A stretch of 64,000 nucleotides of DNA from Pseudo-nitzschia pungens (Eukaryota > Bacillariophyta > Bacillariophyceae > Bacillariales > Bacillariaceae): positions 434,001 through 498,000 of the forward strand of contig CM074769.1 in assembly GCA_037355855.1 (NCBI GenBank), in the 5' to 3' direction. This document shows positions 19,170 to 49,703 of the stretch, piece by piece. The position numbers and the translations under genes were made by a program. Numbering within the stretch: the stretch's first letter is position 1; each line of letters starts with the position of its first letter. Under the pieces are notes generated by a model. The model had not been told where the DNA came from. It did no database searches and saw only the letters and a list, made by a program, of their open reading frames with translations.

Positions 19170-20207
19170 ATGAACATGGTATTCTTCTCCTTGTGCATTC
19201 TCACATTCCTGGCAATCAGTCAAGTTGAAGCTCAGGACAACGAATGGACCCCCTGCACTCCTCTGCGAGAATGTAGTCAAAAACGTGTCTTTCCGGCAGT
19301 CGACGTGAAAGAGTATTATAAATCCGCTGAGGGTTTGGAAGGCAACGAACTACGCAAGGAATTGAATTCGATCATCAAGGACCATTTTGTCTACTCTTAT
19401 GGTTGTGTATGGAACGCACTCGCAGAACTTGATCGTGACCCCAACAACCCGGACAATGTGATTGACTTTTTCACTTCGCGGCCTATTCCAGTTCTTCGTC
19501 GCGATTGTGGTAAAGGTGACGGTGACTCGTGGAACCGCGAACACATTTGGGCAAAAAGCCAAGGCTTCCCTGAACAAAGATGTCATGCATACACTGACGT
19601 TCATCACTTACGTGCAGCAGATCGATCTGTGAACGGTGACCGATCTAATTATGATTACAAAGAGGGAGGAACGGCCAACGACGAATGCACGTCGTGCAAC
19701 GTTGACAAAGAAAAACGGACCTTTGAGCCATCAGATTTCCGCAAAGGTGAAACTGCTCGAATGATGCTCTACATGGATGTACGCTATGAAGGTGATGACA
19801 ACAGTTTTACAGATGATTTGGTCTTGACAGACGACTTCCAAAGTGGCAACAAAGATCCAGCTTCTGGGTTTCTTTCTGATCTGTTGAAGTGGCACTGCGA
19901 TTTCCCTCCGAGTGAAGAAGAGCGTCGCCGGAACGATGGTGTGCATTCTTGGCAGGGCAATCGTAATCCATTTATCGATCACCCAGAATATGCTAGCTCT
20001 ATTTGGAAATCCCCGTGCGAAAAGTATGAGAAACCCACAAATGAAAGCGGCAGCGACAATCAAGTTCAACCAATAAAGTCTGATCCTCCTTCCGATTATA
20101 ACTCTCCGTCGTCATTTCTTCCTTCTCTTCGTCAATTTTTTTCAAAGTGGATGAAGGAAATCAGAAAAATGATAGAAAGGATGATGGGCGGATCAAATGG
20201 GTTCTAA
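19170..20207 (+). CDS. Secreted endonuclease I (EndA/NucM-type DNase)
   Basis: Single-exon, 345 residues. Residues 1-21 form a signal peptide (MNMVFFSLCILTFLAISQVEA). The His-Me finger nuclease core shows WNREHIWAKSQGF (R123-E124-H125), TDVHHLRAAD (about 142-151) and VN..RSN (about 154-160). These are the hallmarks of bacterial endonuclease I, which cleaves double-stranded DNA non-specifically in the periplasm or extracellularly. Cysteines are plentiful (CTP, REC, YGC, RDC, RCH, NDECTSC), fitting a disulfide-stabilised exported enzyme. The last 60 residues are Ser/Pro-rich then basic. The family is mainly bacterial, so an ancient transfer is plausible; phosphate scavenging from external DNA is an inferred role. 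Confidence 0.92.
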   Translation: MNMVFFSLCILTFLAISQVEAQDNEWTPCTPLRECSQKRVFPAVDVKEYYKSAEGLEGNELRKELNSIIKDHFVYSYGCVWNALAELDRDPNNPDNVIDFFTSRPIPVLRRDCGKGDGDSWNREHIWAKSQGFPEQRCHAYTDVHHLRAADRSVNGDRSNYDYKEGGTANDECTSCNVDKEKRTFEPSDFRKGETARMMLYMDVRYEGDDNSFTDDLVLTDDFQSGNKDPASGFLSDLLKWHCDFPPSEEERRRNDGVHSWQGNRNPFIDHPEYASSIWKSPCEKYEKPTNESGSDNQVQPIKSDPPSDYNSPSSFLPSLRQFFSKWMKEIRKMIERMMGGSNGF

Positions 20208-38107: not shown

Positions 38108-39619
38108 TTACGGTGGCTTGGAAATCTCCATCAGTATTTTGCGCATGCAGAGTGGCGGAGACGCTCCCCACGCTCCGTCCAACCCGCCGCTTCCTCGGTC
38201 CTGGTTTGCCTCGCCACCGGCAGTCGGAGCTTCCTCCGGCCTTTCGGCATCCTTTCGAATCGCGTCGAAAAACTCGGCCTCGGTCGCCGTTCCGACATCG
38301 GTGCCGGGCGTGCCGACGATGCTCACGGTTCGCCGGTTGGTGCCGGCGTGGATGGTCCCCCGAGAAGGCGTCGACCGCTGTGCGCTTTCCGCGACGGGGC
38401 CTTTCTCGGGAGCGTCCCCGACGAAATCGATCAGGGCCCGTTCCAGGACGGTCGACACAATGCGGTGCCGGGTGGCCGCATGATCGCCGCCGCCGCCGTC
38501 GTCGTCGTCGCTCCAGGGATAGCCGTCCGTTGTCATCAGGAACAGCAGGTGCTGCACGGCGTAGTACATCAGGGGATGTTCGGGAGACACCGCCACCAGG
38601 TTGGTATTGATTTCCGCTCGCGAATCCGAATGGTGGTTCTCGTCGCTCGGTACCAAAAAGAGGATTGCGTCGTTGTGGGAATCGCGGAGGATAGCGCCGG
38701 TGGCACCGCTTTGCGACAACGGTGGCGGCGCGTATTCCAGATCGGCGTACACGCCACCGAAAATGTACAGGCAGAGAAAGCGCCACACGAGTCGTTTGGA
38801 AAAGGATCCGTTGCCCACACAATTCCTCAGGATCTGCCCGAGGTGGGGAAACTCGTTGGCAACGACCAACGGAACCCGGTGTTGCTTGGCGATGTTCGGT
38901 CCCTGCTGCTGGGAAGCAATGATCACTCGGAAGAGACGCGTCATGGCATCCTCCGTGTGAAAATAAATGGACCATTCCTCGTCCTCGTCCTCGTTGTTGC
39001 TATTACTATTACTATTGCCATCGCCATCGCCTGTCAGAAGGTGTCCTTTCCACTGTTGATTTAGATCGTACAGCGCCGATGGAACACACCTCGAGGAGCC
39101 TTGCTGATGAAAAATCTTTGGTATCTTTCGATTGTTGCGCGTCTCCGATTGCCTCTGTGGATTGATGCCCCTCGTAGCAGTCGAATTCGAACCAAGGTGA
39201 TGGTACCCGGTTATCCGTTTTCTCCCTTTGTCGGGACAAGACACCGATACCGCATCGGTAACTCGGAAGGGCTGGGTGATCTGTTCCAACGATTTTCGGG
39301 TTTTTGCTCGGTGTGTCGTGGATGATTCCGTCGACCCCAACGGGGATGCATTCGTCGGGGCATCGTCGATCCTCTTCGTTTTGATTGTGGTCGTGGTCGC
39401 TGCGTGCTGTACATCGAGATATCCGGCGAGGTTGCTGTTGTCTTCGAACGGAAAATAGAAAGCCCGCTCCACCAACAAAAAGAACAGAGGGCAAAACGCG
39501 ACGAAGCGAATCAGGGTGCGGAGTTTGTTGCTTCGCTGCTGCTCGTTCGGGCGAAGGATAATGTTCGGCCTCTTGGTTGCCGGCACTTTGCCCCACATTC
39601 TGGATATCCCCGTGAACAT
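38108..39619 (-). CDS. GT32-type glycosyltransferase (OCH1-like), copy A
   Basis: Single exon, 503 residues. A signal anchor lies at about 35-52 (LIRFVAFCPLFFLLVERAF), giving type II Golgi topology. A Ser/Thr/Arg-rich stem follows. The sugar-binding family signatures are KIPKIFHQQGSS (about 165-176), EWSIYFHTEDAMTRLF, then RLVWRFLCLYIFGGVYADLE (about 276-295). In OCH1 and related enzymes this last block carries the metal-binding DxD; here it reads D-L-E. VSPEHPLMYYAVQHLL is also family-typical. Low-complexity Asp/Gly insertions (WSDDDDGGGGDH, GDGDGNSNSNSN) interrupt the domain. It probably adds a hexose to protein or lipid-linked glycans; the acceptor is unknown. It lies head-to-head with a paralogue at 40475. 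Confidence 0.82.
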   Translation of the reverse strand: MFTGISRMWGKVPATKRPNIILRPNEQQRSNKLRTLIRFVAFCPLFFLLVERAFYFPFEDNSNLAGYLDVQHAATTTTIKTKRIDDAPTNASPLGSTESSTTHRAKTRKSLEQITQPFRVTDAVSVSCPDKGRKRITGYHHLGSNSTATRGINPQRQSETRNNRKIPKIFHQQGSSRCVPSALYDLNQQWKGHLLTGDGDGNSNSNSNNEDEDEEWSIYFHTEDAMTRLFRVIIASQQQGPNIAKQHRVPLVVANEFPHLGQILRNCVGNGSFSKRLVWRFLCLYIFGGVYADLEYAPPPLSQSGATGAILRDSHNDAILFLVPSDENHHSDSRAEINTNLVAVSPEHPLMYYAVQHLLFLMTTDGYPWSDDDDGGGGDHAATRHRIVSTVLERALIDFVGDAPEKGPVAESAQRSTPSRGTIHAGTNRRTVSIVGTPGTDVGTATEAEFFDAIRKDAERPEEAPTAGGEANQDRGSGGLDGAWGASPPLCMRKILMEISKPP

Positions 39620-40474
39620 GCCGGTACCGATTCACCCCAGAGCAAAGTGAGGTTCCCGATCTGTTACTGTATTGTTGTTTCTTGCGGAACGCAAGTCTCT
39701 GCCCAAACTCGTATCGTTCTCTTGCAAGTAGGTTTCTCAAAGTCTCGGTTGTCCCTGTGATACCCTAATAGCGCCTCGAAAGCTGTGGTTTCGGTTCCTG
39801 AGTATCAATGCAGTCGATCACGTATTGACACTCAATGCACTTTCCTACGGATTCCCATCATTGTCAATTCGTTGGGTTGGGTAATTACCGTATCATGACA
39901 ATTATGTCGTTACGATGAATTTTTTTGGGAGTGTTTGATGTCAGATTCCGACTGCTGCCTAGAAAAACCTTTTTTGTTGATGTTGGAAGCACTCGGGATG
40001 TTCGGACTCATTGCGCGGATTGGGGGGCTATTATTTCAATCATCAGGAGGAATGACAAAGAGTTCCGCAAGTCATAATTTTTTTCGAGCTCCAGAGTGCG
40101 AAAAGGCGTCGAACCTTACTTGTAACTCGTGTTGTCCGGTGTCTTCAGTTGCGCTTTGAAATAATTACCAGTAGTATTTCGATTGCGACTAATTCCATGT
40201 TCCATCCACCTTGCTTGAAACAGATATACCGGTAGCTCAAAGCTCGACGACATTGAGCGTGAAACCTTTTTGTCCGCTTTCGGTGTCACCACCCCTCTGA
40301 CCACTCAAAGACATCGGGCGAACGATCACAGAGCGCAATTAATTACTGCAAGGCGGAGTGATCGCTGTTCGCAGTTTCCAACTTACAACACCCGAGAACA
40401 CGACCAATCCTGTTTCGAATCCATCCATCTCTCCAACGATTGTCCCGACCGCGGCAAGAAAATGTTCCGATAAC
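39620..40474. other. Shared divergent promoter of the GT32 pair
   Basis: About 0.85 kb between the two starts. I see no coding sequence. The upstream reading frame of copy B is open beyond its first ATG, but only through non-ATG codons. Confidence 0.55.
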
Positions 40475-42308
40475 ATGTCCCCTGCGAATCCAAAACCGAC
40501 CGCAAAGTCACCAACACCAGCGGAACTGCAAGCACGGCAAGGTCGCAGGAGGGTTTCGAACAGATCCGGAGCCGCAAAAGACGGGCGGTCGAACCGCAGG
40601 AGACGCAAGAATGGTGCGGCAGGATCCAAGGCAAGCAATCCCGCATCCGATCCCGGATTGGCTGCGATCCCGGAGGAAAATCCAAAGAAGACCAAGTTGG
40701 TCTATCGAAGGACAAAGGTCCTGAGAAAATGGGTGCTGCCGACCGTCTTTTTGGTTCCTCTAGGCATTGTTGGGTTGGAATATTACATCGGACAGCTCAT
40801 CGGGCTCGAGCACGTCAGGGTTGTGTACGAGGAGCAGCTGGTCGATCCCTGGGACCTGCTGATGCAAAAGCTGGACGCCCCGGAAGTGCCGGATCCGAGC
40901 TGCCTGGGGAGCTCTGCGCCCCACTACACCCTGGCCGACATTGCGTTCACGCCGAGGAAAAAGTGCCCCGAGGGACAGCGACGAATGATCAATTTCCACA
41001 ATCCGGTCTGGAATTCCAGGGTCGACGACAACAAGCTCATTCCGAGGTTCGTGCACCAGCACTCGGACACCCGGTGTCTGACCATGAGAGTGGATCGAAC
41101 GTCGACCAAGTGGGCCTTCCGTCATGTACGTACCGCATCGAATCGTATCGAATCAATCAGCTGATTGGGACGTGTGTTCCTCTATGAATCGATATGCGTG
41201 AAATCGGATCGCTGCGTCGTTGCAATGCACTCTCGGTTTGTTTGTTCTTCGGAAGCAATGAATTCAGAAACAATGGAAGACTGACTCACAACAAATTCGA
41301 ACATTCTTCGTTGTCGCATGCATGCTATCCCATAGTGGAGCTACTACATTCACGACGAAGAGTCGAGGGATCGTTTGTTCGAAAAGTACTGTGGGGATTT
41401 CACACAATCCTGCGAGTTCCCGCTGTTGTGCCAGATCGTTTCCAAGTGTTTTCGCACGACGAACCATCGAAACCGAGTTCGATACGATTCCCTCAAAATC
41501 GAGCTGTGGAAATTCCTTGCGGTACGTCGATGTGTGTTCCCTCGAGATGATTCGTCGCGTTCTTTCCTGCTAGCTTGATGCCTTGCGACGGCTTGCTTGC
41601 TCTGTTTCTTCCTCGCGTGCGTCGGATATTGCCGTTCCTGACCGGTCTCTTGTCTTGCCGCGCATGTCGTCTCCGATGATTCCACGCTAGCTTTGGATTT
41701 TTGGTGGAGTGTATGTGGAACTAGGCTTTCTGCCGTCAAGATTCCACGGCGGAAGCATTCAAAAAGACGACGACGGAATCTTCTGGATCGACCCAAAGAC
41801 GGGAATGCTCAGCACGAAACTGATGGCGGTGTCCCCGCGGCATCCCATCATGTACTACGCCGTTCAGAGCTTGCTGCTGGCCATGCTCGCGGAGGGGGAG
41901 AAGGAGGGGGAGTCGTCTTCGTCGTCGCTGCTGCTCTCGGGGGACGACGCCGGTTCGCGCATTCTGAGCCGGGCCCTCTGGATGTTTCGAGACCAACCGC
42001 AACCGCCGGACGGCGAGGAGCTTTCTCCGGGACAATACCACGGGGTCTTGGACCGCTCGGTGCGCGTGATGGACGGCAACGGATTGGTGCTGCCCGAACG
42101 GCAGGAAGGCGGCGACGGCGACGTCGTCGCAACGACGGGCAACGGTTGGGTCGCGTCCGTGTTCACCAGCGACCAGGACAGAGAAGCCGAGTTTCGAAAA
42201 ATAGGAATGGTGAAAGACGCTATCGGGGAGGAGGACGGAGGCAACGAGGGGAGACTGTCATCCTGCTTTGGCGAGCTTCATCATCTCCGAAAAGTTTCTG
42301 CATCGTAA
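40475..42308 (+). CDS. GT32-type glycosyltransferase-like protein, copy B, DxD motif lost
   Basis: Exons 40475-41125, 41336-41521 and 41691-42308 total 1455 nt, giving 484 residues. A basic N-terminus (RRRRKN) precedes a signal anchor at about 87-106 (LPTVFLVPLGIVGLEYY). Family motifs are KLIPRFVHQHSD, KWAFRHWSYYIHDEESRDRL, SLKIELWKFLALWIFGGVYV (joined across intron 2), and LMAVSPRHPIMYYAVQSLLL. At the place of the catalytic DxD the protein reads V-E-L-G (288-291), so it may have lost metal and donor binding. The tail has Ser-rich and acidic insertions. It is paralogous to copy A and transcribed divergently from it. It could be an inactive partner or regulator, or use an alternative mechanism. 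Confidence 0.78.
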
Positions 42309-44193: not shown

Positions 44194-47100
44194 ATGGCAT
44201 CTGGAGGAGGCCCCGGACGGGGAGGACATTCCTGGCAGCCTACCGCACCGGGAGGCCAGCCACCACCACAGCAGCAGCCACCACCGGGCGGCCAGCAGCA
44301 ACCCATGCCGCCACCCCCCATGGCCGCCTATCACCCCGGCGGACGGGGAGGACGGGGCCCGCCACCTTCGGGACCGCGCGGAAACCCAAGCGTTCCCCCA
44401 CCGAACGCCTACGTGGTGGGAATGACCCACCACCAGATGAATCAGATGAATGCCTTCTACAGCCCGTACGCCCAGCAGCACATGGTGCCGCACCCGCAAT
44501 TCGCTCCCCAGGGCGGAAGGGGCGGCGCCCACGGCTGGAACCACTCCTTTCCGGGGGCTCCGGTGGGAGTTCCCCCCCACTACGCCTCCAGTCCGCAGCA
44601 GTACTACTCCCAGGGTCCCCAGCCCGGCCGGGGAGCTCCGAGGGGAGACAGGGGCGGTCGAGGCGGGGGTGGTGGCCGAGGCGGAACCCACTTTGCGTCC
44701 TACAATCCTCCCCACAATCCTCCCCCGGCCCCCCGCGAGAAGAAGGTCCTGGTCATTACGGTACGCATTGAAACGTATTGTTGTGTCGTGTCGTGTTGCG
44801 TTGTGTTGCGTTGCGTTGCGTTGGGAATCGATTTTGTAAAACTCCGAAGGACGACTGCTCTTCAACACTCACCGTGGCCTTTTTCTGTTTATATCGCTCG
44901 CTCATTTTACTCTTCCGTGTATCGTTCTCGTTCTCGCAGGACAAGGACGGCAATCCCATCGATTTCTCCTCGTCGAAAAAATCCAGCCAGTCAACCGCGG
45001 CAGCTGCCGCTCCCGCCCCGGCAGCCGCGCGTTCGACCGATGCCGGAGCCAAGCTGCGACAGGCGGCACTAGACGCCATCCAGGGAAAGAGCGCCAAGGA
45101 TGCCGCCGCTAAGAAAAAGGCGGAGGAAGAAGCAGCCGCCAAGAAGAAGGAGGAAGAAGAGGCCGCCGCCAAGAAGAAAGCCGAAGAGGAAGCCGCGGCC
45201 GCTGCTGCCAAGAAGAAGGAAGAAGAGGAGGCGGCCGCAAAGAAAAAGGCCGAAGAAGAAGCTGCCGCTGCGAAGAAGAAGAAGGAAGAGGAAGAAAAGG
45301 CTGCTGCCGCGGCCAAGGAAGCCGAGGAAAAGAAAAAGGCTGCCGCCGCTGCTGCTGCTGCTTCCAAACCCAAGTCCTCCCTGGCCTCGCTCTTGTCCAA
45401 ACAAAAAGAAAAGGCGGCGGAGGAAGAAACCGTTGCAAACACCACCGCGGCATCCTCGGCCACGCCGGGATCCTCCTCGAACGGCAAGAGAAGACGCCAC
45501 GTCTACTCCAAGGAGGAAATGCTCAGGCTCCGATCCCTCCCGGTTTGCCAGGCACGCCCGTCCGACCTGCCCGAATTCGTCATCACCAAGGGACCCCAGG
45601 CCGCCCGCACCGGTGGCGCCGGGGGAGGCGGCGGAGACGGCCACCACCGCGGAGATCGCGGCGATCGCCGGCAACAAAACCGTGGCTCCTGGGAGCGCGG
45701 AGCGGCACCCCCTCCCCGACGCGGCAACAACAACAATCAGAACGACAGCAACACGGGAGGACAATGGGCCCGCGGCAAGGCTCCTCCTCCCCAGCAGAAC
45801 CGTGGGGGACGCGGCGGTCGCGGTGGAAGAGGTGGTCGCGGGCAAGGTCCGCCCTACTTTGACGGCCCCGTGGCTCCGCTCGTCAAGTCGGCAAACGGCT
45901 GGCGACCACAGAAAAACACCGGTCCGATGGTCATTGCTACCAAGAAGGTCAAGTCGATTCTGAACAAGATGACCAAGGAGAAATTCGATCGATTGTCCCA
46001 GCAGATTATCGACATTCCCGTAAAGTCCTATGCCATACTGACCATGATGATTTCCAACGTCTACGAAAAGGCCATCGACGAGCCCTACCTCGGAGACATG
46101 TACGGAGACTTGTGCGTAAGACTCTCCCAGAACGTCCAGAGCAACTCTTTCATACACATTATCAAATCCGACGAAGAACCACCCACGGAAGACGGAGAAC
46201 CCGCTCCTCCCTCGTCCGGAGGAGACGCCGCGTCCAACTTTAGTGTGTACCGGTGGAGCAACGACGTGTCCACGGACGATTCCGACATTGTGGGACCCTT
46301 TGATTCCGTGCAAGACTGCACCAAAATGGCCCTGTCCTCCAACGAGCAACAAGATCCGGTGTCGCGGGGTGAGATGGAACTCGAACTGGTCAAGCTGCAG
46401 ATCAAGTCCGGGGTCTTCATCAAGACCATGAAGGTCAAACCCAAGGAAGACGAGGAATCATCCTCGTCGGCACCAGACAAATTCTACACCGTCTTCTTCC
46501 CGGTCACCGACCACGATCAGTGCGGCCAGCAACTCTCCAAGATCTTTTTGAGCGAGCGGGAAGCCGTTTCGGATGCCAACAAGCAGAATTCCTTCAAGCG
46601 TTCGTTGTTGAACAAGTGCGAGGACGAATTCAACAAGGGCGACATCTACGAGGGCTGGAAGAAGGAAGAAGCAGAATACAAAGCAAACATGGCATCGTTG
46701 TCGGCCAAGGAACAGGCCGAAAAAGAGGAAGACCTGGAATTCCGCCGCATGAAGATCAAGAAGCAGATGCTTGGAAACATCAAGTTCATCGGCCAGCTGT
46801 ACAAGAAAAACCTCATCAAGGAGAAGATTATGAGATACTGCATTGCTTCCCTGCTGAACCTAAAAACCAACGACGACCGAGCCAAGCTCCCTGTGTACTA
46901 CGACACCGGAAAAATCGACATGGACGAAGAAGATCACGAGGCAATCTGCAACATGTTCTCGACCATCGGACAGACCATTGACAAACCTGGCGCCGAGGGC
47001 TTTATGAGGGTGTGCTTTGACAAGATCCAGAAACTAAGCGTCAACAAAACCCTCCCCGCCCGATCCAGATTCATGTACAAGGACTTGCTGGACCTCCGCA

Positions 47101-48053
47101 AGAGCAACTGGGTTCCCAGGCGCAAGGAAGAAAAGGCCAAGAAAATTTCCGAGGTCCGCAAGGACTTTGAGCGAGAAGAGCGAAAAATCGCACAAGAATC
47201 CGCCGCGGCCAACCAAGGCAACTATCGTGGCAACAACTACGGTGGTGGCCGAGGTGGAAGAGGCGGCGGCGGAGACTACCGCAACAACAACCGAACCAAC
47301 TACGGTGGCGGCAACCGGCAACGCTCACAACGCCAAATGGAGACGGACGACGATGGCTTCACTACCATTGTTGGAGGCGCCAAGCAGACCCGTGGCAATC
47401 CCCAAAAGCGAAGCATCCAGGCCAGGCCTAAATCTTCGCCCGCTCCAGCGGCTGCTCCCGCGAAACCTGCTGCTCCTTCGTATCCTCCCCTGGACGACGA
47501 GAAGCTCGAACGCCGCATCAAGACGATCCGCGGCGAGTACATGCAGGACCCCAAAAACCGCAAAGATCTTCTCCTCTCATTGGACGAACTCACCGGAACA
47601 GAGAACTACGGTTCCAAGTTTGTTTCGCTCAACTCTGATCGCATGATCGATTGCAAGGAGGACGAGCGCAAGGCCATCTACGCCATGCTCGAAATCTTGG
47701 TGCAGGAGGGAAAGATCTCGCCGAGCGACGTCAAGAAAGGTCTGCTCGACATTATCGAGTTTATCGATTCCTTTGCCTGCGACGCTCCTTTTGCTTATGA
47801 CTACCTCGGACGCATGCTTGCGACTATGATTCGATGCAACGCTGTGGACGTCACCTGGATCGCCGGGGAAGCCGAGAAGACCAAGATCAGCAGAGACGAC
47901 AACCCCGAAAAGATCATCCGTTCCCTGATCAAGGCCATCAATGACGACAAGGGAGTCGAAGCCATCAAGGCCGCCTTTAGACCCCACCAAAAGGCATTGG
48001 AGAAATTGCTCGGAAAGGATAAATGGGAGTCGATCAAAAAGGAGATTGCTTAA
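44194..48053 (+). CDS. EIF4G: Eukaryotic translation initiation factor 4G
   Basis: Scaffold of the cap-binding complex. Exons 44194-44760 and 44940-48053 give 1226 residues. The N-terminus is Gly/Pro/Gln-rich, with RGG boxes. A long Ala/Lys/Glu coiled coil follows. YSKEEML at about 378-384 is a near match to the eIF4E-binding YxxxxL(phi), with Met at the Leu place. A second RGG segment follows. The MIF4G domain starts near 513 (KSILNKMTKEKFDRLSQQI). It is interrupted by an insertion of roughly 120 residues rich in acidic and Ser stretches, before resuming with SFKRSLLNKCEDEF and KFIGQLYKKNLIKEKIM. The C-terminal MA3 domain starts near 1025 and ends in KWESIKKEIA. Its intron carries a GCGTT-type repeat. 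Confidence 0.95.
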
Positions 48054-48731: not shown

Positions 48732-48735
48732 AAAA
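48732..48735 (-). terminator. RNA polymerase III T4 terminator of the permuted tRNA
   Basis: On the minus strand a TTTT run lies 10 bases after the end of the tRNA 5' half, in GGTAATTTTGC. A longer T7 run lies about 30 bases further downstream. This is the usual Pol III stop, placed after the box A half as expected if the whole permuted unit is one transcript. Confidence 0.6.
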
Positions 48736-48745
48736 TTACCTGCTA

Positions 48746-48822
48746 TCGTAGTCAGACGCCTTGCCGTTGGGCCAAAGGGTCGTGTGAAACCCTCCCGGGA
48801 ATCGAACCCGGAATCTTCTGAT
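48746..48822 (-). tRNA. Circularly permuted tRNA-Arg(ACG)
   Basis: Read on the minus strand the 3' half comes first. It consists of A38, anticodon-stem strand TCAGA, variable loop AGATT, T arm CCGGG-TTCGATT-CCCGG and acceptor strand GAGGGTT (48822-48788). Six bases (TCACAC, 48787-48782) follow. Then comes the 5' half: acceptor GACCCTT, TG, D arm GCCC-AACGGCAA-GGC, G26, stem TCTGA and loop CTACGA (48781-48746). Acceptor strands pair over 7 bp (two G:U), anticodon stem 5/5, T stem 5/5, D stem 3. Joined at 37/38 the loop is CTACGAA, with anticodon ACG. The result closely parallels yeast tRNA-Arg(ACG) as I remember it, including the AGATT variable loop. Box B precedes box A. A T4 stop follows. 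Maturation should need circularisation by the splicing enzymes, then trimming at the linker. Confidence 0.87.
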
Positions 48823-49703
48823 ACCTATTGTGAGCGAGTCAGCTCGTACAGTGAAACAACTTTTGTGTTCTCGACACCTTCGGTCGCCGTTCTGTTCCTT
48901 ATATACGGTAAGGTTACTGCGTTGTTGTGATTCAAGCCCATCCATTCTCAGCATGATATATCATGAAGTTTCGAACAATAACTACCTCTGTTGAATGATA
49001 GCTTCATGCTATCTTCGACCTCAGCTCATATTCAAAAAATGGAAAAATCCTTCAAATCTCCCCACTCATGGTAATAGTATAATTCCCTTTTACTAGTCAA
49101 TTTATTCATCAAAAAATCATCATTTTTACCATTGGATCTGGTCAAAAGCAATTTTTGGGCTCATATTTTGGTTCAAGTCACACACACCAATACTAGCTTC
49201 AACATGATATGAAGCCAAAAAAAGACGTAGTTGAATTGTATGTCGTCCTGGTGTGACAATTCATAGTTCTCTCTAGTAGAATCTATGAACTCATGCGTTG
49301 CCCAAATGTTCTTTTTCCCAGAGCAACCGTGAACTCGTCCTTATAGCATACAGTGGACCATGGATACAGGTTCCTTCTAAAAGTATAATTTAACGTGCAG
49401 CTTTTCATTGTTCATACCTGTGCTACCGGTACGTTATTTAACACGCACCGAGTATTTTGCTAAAAAATGGTGGTTCCCTCGAAAGGTTCCATGAATTTTT
49501 AAATTTTTGGGTTCCTCTTCTCCGACAACTGCCACCGCCGCTCCGGGTTGCCGATGTTCTAACAAAATCAATCATCTCGAAAGAAGTTACCGAAGCCGAT
49601 CACGATCATACAAGAAGGACTCTACCAAAGCGAATCATACCGATTTGAACCAAATACCCTCTCCTACTAGACCTTGCGAAACTTTTATCCGCTATCACTG
49701 AAA

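Follow-up and report, generated by a model that had tools for sequence, protein, structure and literature searches.

Eight dispersed permuted tRNA-Arg(ACG) genes, likely transcribed from upstream TATA boxes, in a probable raphid pennate diatom

The locus described here is, with high confidence, one of eight dispersed permuted tRNA-Arg(ACG) genes in a diatom nucleus. Judged from sequence, the family is likely transcribed by Pol III from an upstream TATA box, and the predicted fate of its precursor is cleavage at the 37/38 junction, closure into a circle and then reopening to yield the tRNA. The gene lies on the minus strand at positions 48746-48822 of the window, the 64,000-nucleotide stretch of DNA that was analysed, and in it the 3' half of the tRNA is followed by a 5-nt spacer and then by the 5' half, with the junction at 37/38 (Table 1). 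An earlier note on this DNA had read a permuted tRNA-Arg(ACG) at the same place; its letters and coordinates are confirmed, and the strand, which it had left out, is minus.

The permuted gene and its host

The four helices that the note described as pairing across the swapped halves are all present. The acceptor stem of the window copy (GACCCTT/GAGGGTT) has seven pairs, two of which are G-T, and the anticodon stem (TCTGA/TCAGA) and the T stem (CCGGG/CCCGG) are also formed. The D stem consists of three standard pairs plus a C-A apposition at 13-22 that is found in all eight copies. Once the halves are joined, U8, A15/U48, G18 G19, U33, and TTC at 54-56 are present (numbered by eye).

Table 1. 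Features of the permuted tRNA-Arg(ACG) locus in the window
Feature	Coordinates	Strand	Contents or position	Basis
3' half, positions 38-73 (A38 to T73)	48787..48822	-	A38, anticodon stem 3' strand, variable loop, T arm, acceptor 3' strand, U73	sequence and R1 match
Spacer CACAC	48782..48786	-	from acceptor 3' strand to acceptor 5' strand	
5' half, positions 1-37 (G1 to A37)	48746..48781	-	acceptor 5' strand, D arm, anticodon stem 5' strand, anticodon ACG, A37	sequence and R1 match
Leader ATAG	48825..48828	-	-6 to -3	3 of 4 bases pairable with C32-U33-A34, standard A-I register
TATATAA, predicted upstream Pol III promoter element	48899..48905	-	-83 to -77 from A38	
TTTT, predicted Pol III terminator	48732..48735	-	+11 after A37	

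In genomic order, neither ARAGORN nor Rfam at the gathering score reports a tRNA anywhere in the window, as is to be expected of swapped halves; when the halves are joined, ARAGORN reads tRNA-Arg(acg) from both the family consensus and the window copy. An ordinary intron-containing tRNA gene is ruled out, since the 5' half does not lie upstream of the 3' half. The permuted order was also scored with R1, a covariance model made from 18 ordinary tRNAs of the same assembly that were permuted at 37/38 in silico. Its training set comprised nuclear and organelle-type ARAGORN tRNAs and zero permuted Arg copies. When R1 is run on the window plus 11 loci (97,845 bases), the locus in the window scores 58.9 bits with E 3e-16, E-values of this model being rough, and the other seven copies score 57.7 to 62.3 bits; the sole other match of R1 in the window is a 13-nt fragment with E 6. 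Ordinary tRNA loci reach at most 33 bits except for a tandem plastid-type Ala-Ile pair at 49 bits, and R1 alone therefore cannot separate permuted from tandem genes. A sigma-70 and intrinsic-terminator scan and a local-repeat check around the gene returned nothing relevant. The neighbouring long reading frame at 44772-48053 (plus strand) carries a MIF4G domain and is eIF4G-like, with MA3 below the cut-off; about 700 bases separate its end from the permuted tRNA gene, which is on the opposite strand.

The host is probably a raphid pennate diatom, and the diatom origin proposed earlier is supported by the relatives of two genes. The rbcL sequence from contig C18 is 94% identical to that of Pleurosigma and 91% identical to that of Paralia. 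A Sof1-like gene in the window has 80% identity to Nitzschia inconspicua over 88% of the query; a transcript-derived protein comes closer, with 97% identity over 89% of the query. Two further frames of the window, 38108-39631 (minus strand) and 41691-42308 (plus strand), have motifs such as IFGGVY and AVSPxHPxMYYAVQ in common (compared by eye) and are likely paralogous and glycosyltransferase-like; the second is without a Pfam match.

The eight-copy family, its junction and its promoter

A search of the same assembly (66.9 Mb, 28 contigs) with the 101-nt unit returned eight loci on six contigs, namely two each on C5 and C10 and one each on C6, C7, C9, and C12. The seven other copies are 91-96% identical to the window copy. 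Each has the anatomy of 36 nt, 5 nt, and 36 nt with spacer sequences that differ, namely CACAC in the window copy and AATAC, CATTC, ATTAC, GTGAC, CCAGC, AGACT, and AGTGT in the others; every one of the eight loci satisfied the comparison script, which demanded a spacer of 5 nt. Across the exons there are three substitutions in 8 x 72 nt (576 bases) and the mean pairwise identity is 0.99, as against 0.31 in the spacer, 0.295 in the upstream 60 nt, and 0.297 in the downstream 60 nt. Position 20 in the D loop is T in six copies, C in the window copy, and A in copy L005, and in L008 a C to T change in the T stem retains a G-T pair. CCA is absent after T73 in seven copies, and the spacer of L006 begins with CCA by chance. 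As the spacer sits within the gene, a recent duplication or gene conversion would have made it uniform too; the simplest interpretation is selection acting on the two tRNA halves, and the tRNA exons look selected. An assembly artefact, which the earlier note had raised, is judged unlikely in view of eight copies on six contigs with differing flanks. Four exact-pattern scans of viral contigs and prokaryote genome contigs, collections unlikely to hold diatom sequence and possibly lacking records close to this genome, found no relatives.

The splice site probably lies at 37/38, A37 and A38 being invariant across the copies while position -1 varies. In six of the eight copies the leader has GTAG at -7 to -4, complementary to positions 32-35 (CUAC); GTAG at one fixed place occurs at 0.25% of random window positions. 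The two remaining leaders can pair one base closer, with three bases in the window copy (ATAG) and two in L007 (ACAG), a register which we take to be the standard A-I register. The six GTAG copies could form a 4-bp helix with bulges of 4 nt towards the leader and 2 nt opposite. The published BHB has a 4-bp central helix and 3-nt bulges (PMC3978253, Figure 2 legend), and a strict 3/3 BHB was set aside for these six, their bulges being 4/2. Minimum free energy (MFE) folds with 14-nt flanks contain the GTAG:CTAC helix in three of the eight copies (L002, L004, and L005), and in three others (the window copy, L006, and L007) the anticodon stem is replaced by other pairing; the three-base leader pairing of the window copy does not appear in its fold either.

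Outside the unit, TATAA or TATAT starts between -44 and -34 before A38 in seven copies and at -83/-81 in the window copy. A run of at least four T starts between +4 and +7 in six copies, at +11 in the window copy, and at +29 for the first time in L005. Neither a TATA-like element nor a T-run stands between the halves, where the spacer is 5 nt. At 20,000 random window positions the TATA range is satisfied in 1.2% and the T-run range in 2.5%, both ranges having been chosen after the copies were inspected. Among ordinary nuclear tRNA genes, 3 of 20 have a TATA at -60 to -20 of the first base, in a non-random sample with repeated isotypes that was mostly reached via the best Rfam scores; at least 60 nt of upstream sequence was required, and one gene was dropped for having less. 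The contrast between permuted and ordinary genes has a Fisher p of 0.0007, or 0.02 once genes that follow another tRNA at short distance are excluded (3/12, selection by eye), and is suggestive. A further motif common to the upstream regions was sought, and nothing emerged beyond TATA; the best 7-mer was present in six of nine regions and was equalled by 4 of 40 shuffles. U6 is a TATA-type Pol III gene, and the U6 snRNA match at C11:566290-566398 (minus strand), the one match at E 0.001 or better with 47 of 3978 first-look candidates scored, has TATAAT at -28. According to the discussion of promoters in PMC3978253, reversed A and B boxes are unsuited to TFIIIC and an upstream TATA may take over. 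The TATA pattern seen here fits that proposal, few of the sampled ordinary tRNA genes having a TATA.

The pathway that we infer, comprising transcription, a circle and charging of tRNA-Arg(ACG), would run as follows. Pol III would transcribe the gene from the upstream TATA box, a use suggested by the wrong order of the A and B boxes. The precursor would be cut at the 37/38 junction by the SEN endonuclease and closed by a ligase into an RNA circle, which RNase P and tRNase Z would reopen at the acceptor stem, removing the spacer. CCA would then be added to the opened tRNA, and editing of A34 to inosine would let one tRNA read CGU, CGC, and CGA. For algae, PMC3978253 reports precursors and circular intermediates detected by RT-PCR, and charged tRNA by northern blotting and aminoacylation analysis. 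The assembly holds one PF01974 splicing-endonuclease catalytic domain (C2:1561023-1561238, 57.5 bits), whose relatives include three solved tRNA-splicing endonucleases at E 0.001 or better, with Sen2 at just E 0.06. An RtcB ligase was not found in the assembly, the control being positive in 9 of 14 genomes, and PF09511 (RNA_lig_T4_1) and PF08303 (tRNA_lig_kinase) gave no match with controls too weak to imply absence. Trl1-type ligases occur in diatoms, as PMC4090602 states. At the level of sequence, four features support the proposal that this is a working gene, namely conserved exons, TATA boxes, T-runs, and a common junction motif.

The window copy itself is the least typical of the eight in promoter spacing and junction. 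It could be the one pseudogene or weak copy of a family whose other copies work, a possibility that we regard as less likely than not. Its TATA stands at -83/-81 instead of -44 to -34, it has no in-register GTAG, its MFE fold is without the anticodon stem, and it has C at position 20. However, its exons otherwise equal the consensus, a T4 follows at +11, and its leader can pair three bases in the standard A-I register. L005 and L007 also deviate in single features.

Search for an ordinary gene and demand for the tRNA

An ordinary, complete tRNA-Arg(ACG) elsewhere in the genome had been named at the outset as one sign that the locus is a relic, and none was found either by a joined query or by anticodon patterns. 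The joined 72-nt query has 16 matches in the assembly, each a single half and two per permuted locus, and no ordinary copy; an ordinary intron-containing gene with the same exons would probably also have appeared. The pattern CTACGRA plus a T loop occurs at 10 sites and TTACGRA at 11, the reversed control patterns giving 4 each, and ARAGORN found no tRNA in 3-kb loci around all 21 sites. As a positive control, the pattern with a TCG anticodon gave 37 sites that include all seven previously located Arg(TCG) loci; ARAGORN reads four of these seven as Arg(TCG), and the pattern match shows identical letters in the remaining three. An ordinary Arg(ACG) gene that has diverged strongly, or that lies in unassembled sequence, may still exist. 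Diatom plastids carry trnR(ACG), and the ordinary Arg(ACG) pattern picked out no plastid trnR(ACG) in the assembly; the assembled plastid pieces may not be complete, or the pattern may fail to detect this gene. The permuted family is likely the only source of tRNA-Arg(ACG).

Several other elements came to light in these searches. A dispersed repeat with CTTCGAATCGGATTAATAACGGTTCAAAAC or a near variant occurs on different contigs (for example C2:956010, C3:4747128, C4:1227703, and C5:166560) and mimics a tRNA pattern, and a second dispersed repeat, TTACGAATGTTGATGCGTTCATGTTCGAG, has five occurrences in the assembly. Many plastid-type tRNA copies, almost identical to one another, are embedded in large contigs or sit at their ends, as do several intact rbcL frames. 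This plastid-type material, at C7:4.80-5.22 Mb and C5:5.86-5.98 Mb and on contigs C18, C23, and C24, can be read as plastome pieces joined to nuclear contigs by the assembly or as large plastid insertions. A tRNA cluster on another large contig (C2:7.12-7.16 Mb) is organelle-like in look and possibly mitochondrial.

By ordinary wobble rules CGT and CGC need an ACG tRNA, and Arg(TCG) genes occur in ordinary form. Ten stretches of the window were tested, and in the eight with Pfam support (1,994 codons) the 142 arginine codons are divided into CGT 11, CGC 35, CGA 35, CGG 29, AGA 16, and AGG 16. CGT and CGC together make up 46 of the 142 (32%), or 57% with CGA.

The loci could also be relics, that is, decayed leftovers of tandem tRNA genes in a genome where a normally ordered gene elsewhere supplies tRNA-Arg(ACG), but this is very improbable. 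Tandem tRNA genes can mimic permuted order, as the 49 bits of the plastid-type Ala-Ile pair with R1 illustrate, and the window copy departs from its family in TATA position and junction. Against this stand the failure to find an ordinary gene with a method whose control recovers seven Arg(TCG) loci, and the lack of clear outer-half remains in the flanks of the eight copies, of which 200 nt were compared on each side. Among the 16 outer-half comparisons the best one, downstream of L005, was reached by 8 of 200 shuffles, and with outer-half alignments at shuffle level the tandem relic is rejected. Exons that are 99% identical beside spacers and flanks near chance argue in the same direction, as decayed loci would not stay intact. 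Least probable of all is a tRNA-like dispersed repeat, a SINE-like family in place of genes, which eight scattered copies with homology confined to the unit might recall, but which is rejected on copy number and want of a shared body, since the searches give just eight copies, the unit is bounded by tRNA positions 38 and 37, no common body or flank extends beyond GTAG, the TATA and T-run lie in unrelated flanks, and no other common upstream motif rises above shuffles.

Comparison with known permuted tRNA genes and implications

Permuted tRNA genes as a kind are already known, and the lineage, copy number, and promoter contrast reported here are new as far as we searched. PMC3978253, in the sections covered, lists 34 permuted genes from six algae and one archaeon, none of them Arg(ACG) and none from a stramenopile, and its sole pair of genes for the same tRNA is Gly(CCC) in C. 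merolae. Among the closest known systems are the prasinophytes (Ostreococcus and Micromonas), in which 18 of 19 permuted genes from four species have the junction at 37/38 (PMC3978253, Table 1). They share with the present family the 37/38 junction, the swapped order on one strand, and one short spacer, and some have AT-rich upstream sequence. Their genes, in contrast, are for Ser, Leu, Cys, iMet, Asn, and Arg(TCT), whereas Arg(ACG) is permuted here in another supergroup. At most two genes are listed there per anticodon and species, compared with eight copies here. Spacers are 11-64 nt there and 5 nt in each copy here, and the junctions are described as hBH there, while six copies have 4/2 bulges here.

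In C. merolae, as here, most permuted genes have an upstream TATA-like sequence and a downstream T-stretch follows. The circular intermediate and the charged tRNA have been demonstrated in that alga and are predicted here. Unlike the present genome, in which 3 of 20 sampled ordinary genes have a TATA, C. merolae has TATA-like sequences at ordinary tRNA genes also, and its junctions are at several positions. The tRNA-Ser of the Bigelowiella natans nucleomorph has the same 37/38 junction and 5-nt spacer (PMC3978253, Table 1), and permuted tRNA-Ser genes are also recorded from the Amorphochlora amoebiformis nucleomorph (PMC4494063). The chlorarachniophyte nucleomorph, however, is a relict green-algal nucleus with a reduced genome and a Ser gene, as opposed to a 66.9-Mb diatom assembly with Arg(ACG). 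Similarly to the present case, the Auxenochlorella genes were found when a standard tRNA scan gave an incomplete set, although the organism is a green alga (PMC12636532). Thermofilum pendens has the swapped order and short spacers of 1 and 7 nt, but it is an archaeon with a junction at 59/60 and an encoded CCA (PMC3978253, Table 1).

The earlier statement that no such gene had been described in a stramenopile agrees with a search of open-licence PMC papers, which found no report; the passages covered of PMC4090602, PMC8450103, PMC12636532, PMC4929541, and PMC13353863 report no stramenopile permuted tRNA gene. Within the reach of these searches, it would be the first permuted tRNA family with several copies and a switched promoter, and also the first from a stramenopile.

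On balance, we favor the view that the eight permuted genes supply every tRNA for CGU and CGC (with inosine, also for CGA), and that the internal promoter has been swapped for a U6-like external TATA, unlike in most ordinary tRNA genes. The switch would follow from the permutation, which reversed the internal A and B boxes. If all CGU/CGC tRNA derives from permuted genes, an RNA circle would be an obligatory step in the decoding of common arginine codons. Since ARAGORN and the Rfam gathering score overlook the window gene, the tRNA sets of other diatoms may likewise lack Arg(ACG). The own spacer of each copy is a natural barcode, with which RNA reads could tell which copies yield precursors and circles, and the TATA contrast within one nucleus makes the reading of reversed A and B boxes by Pol III testable. 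Discussion of permuted tRNA genes has so far centred on the small or reduced genomes of a few algae and one archaeon (PMC3978253); eight copies in a 67-Mb assembly suggest that the permuted arrangement can multiply and persist for a needed tRNA.
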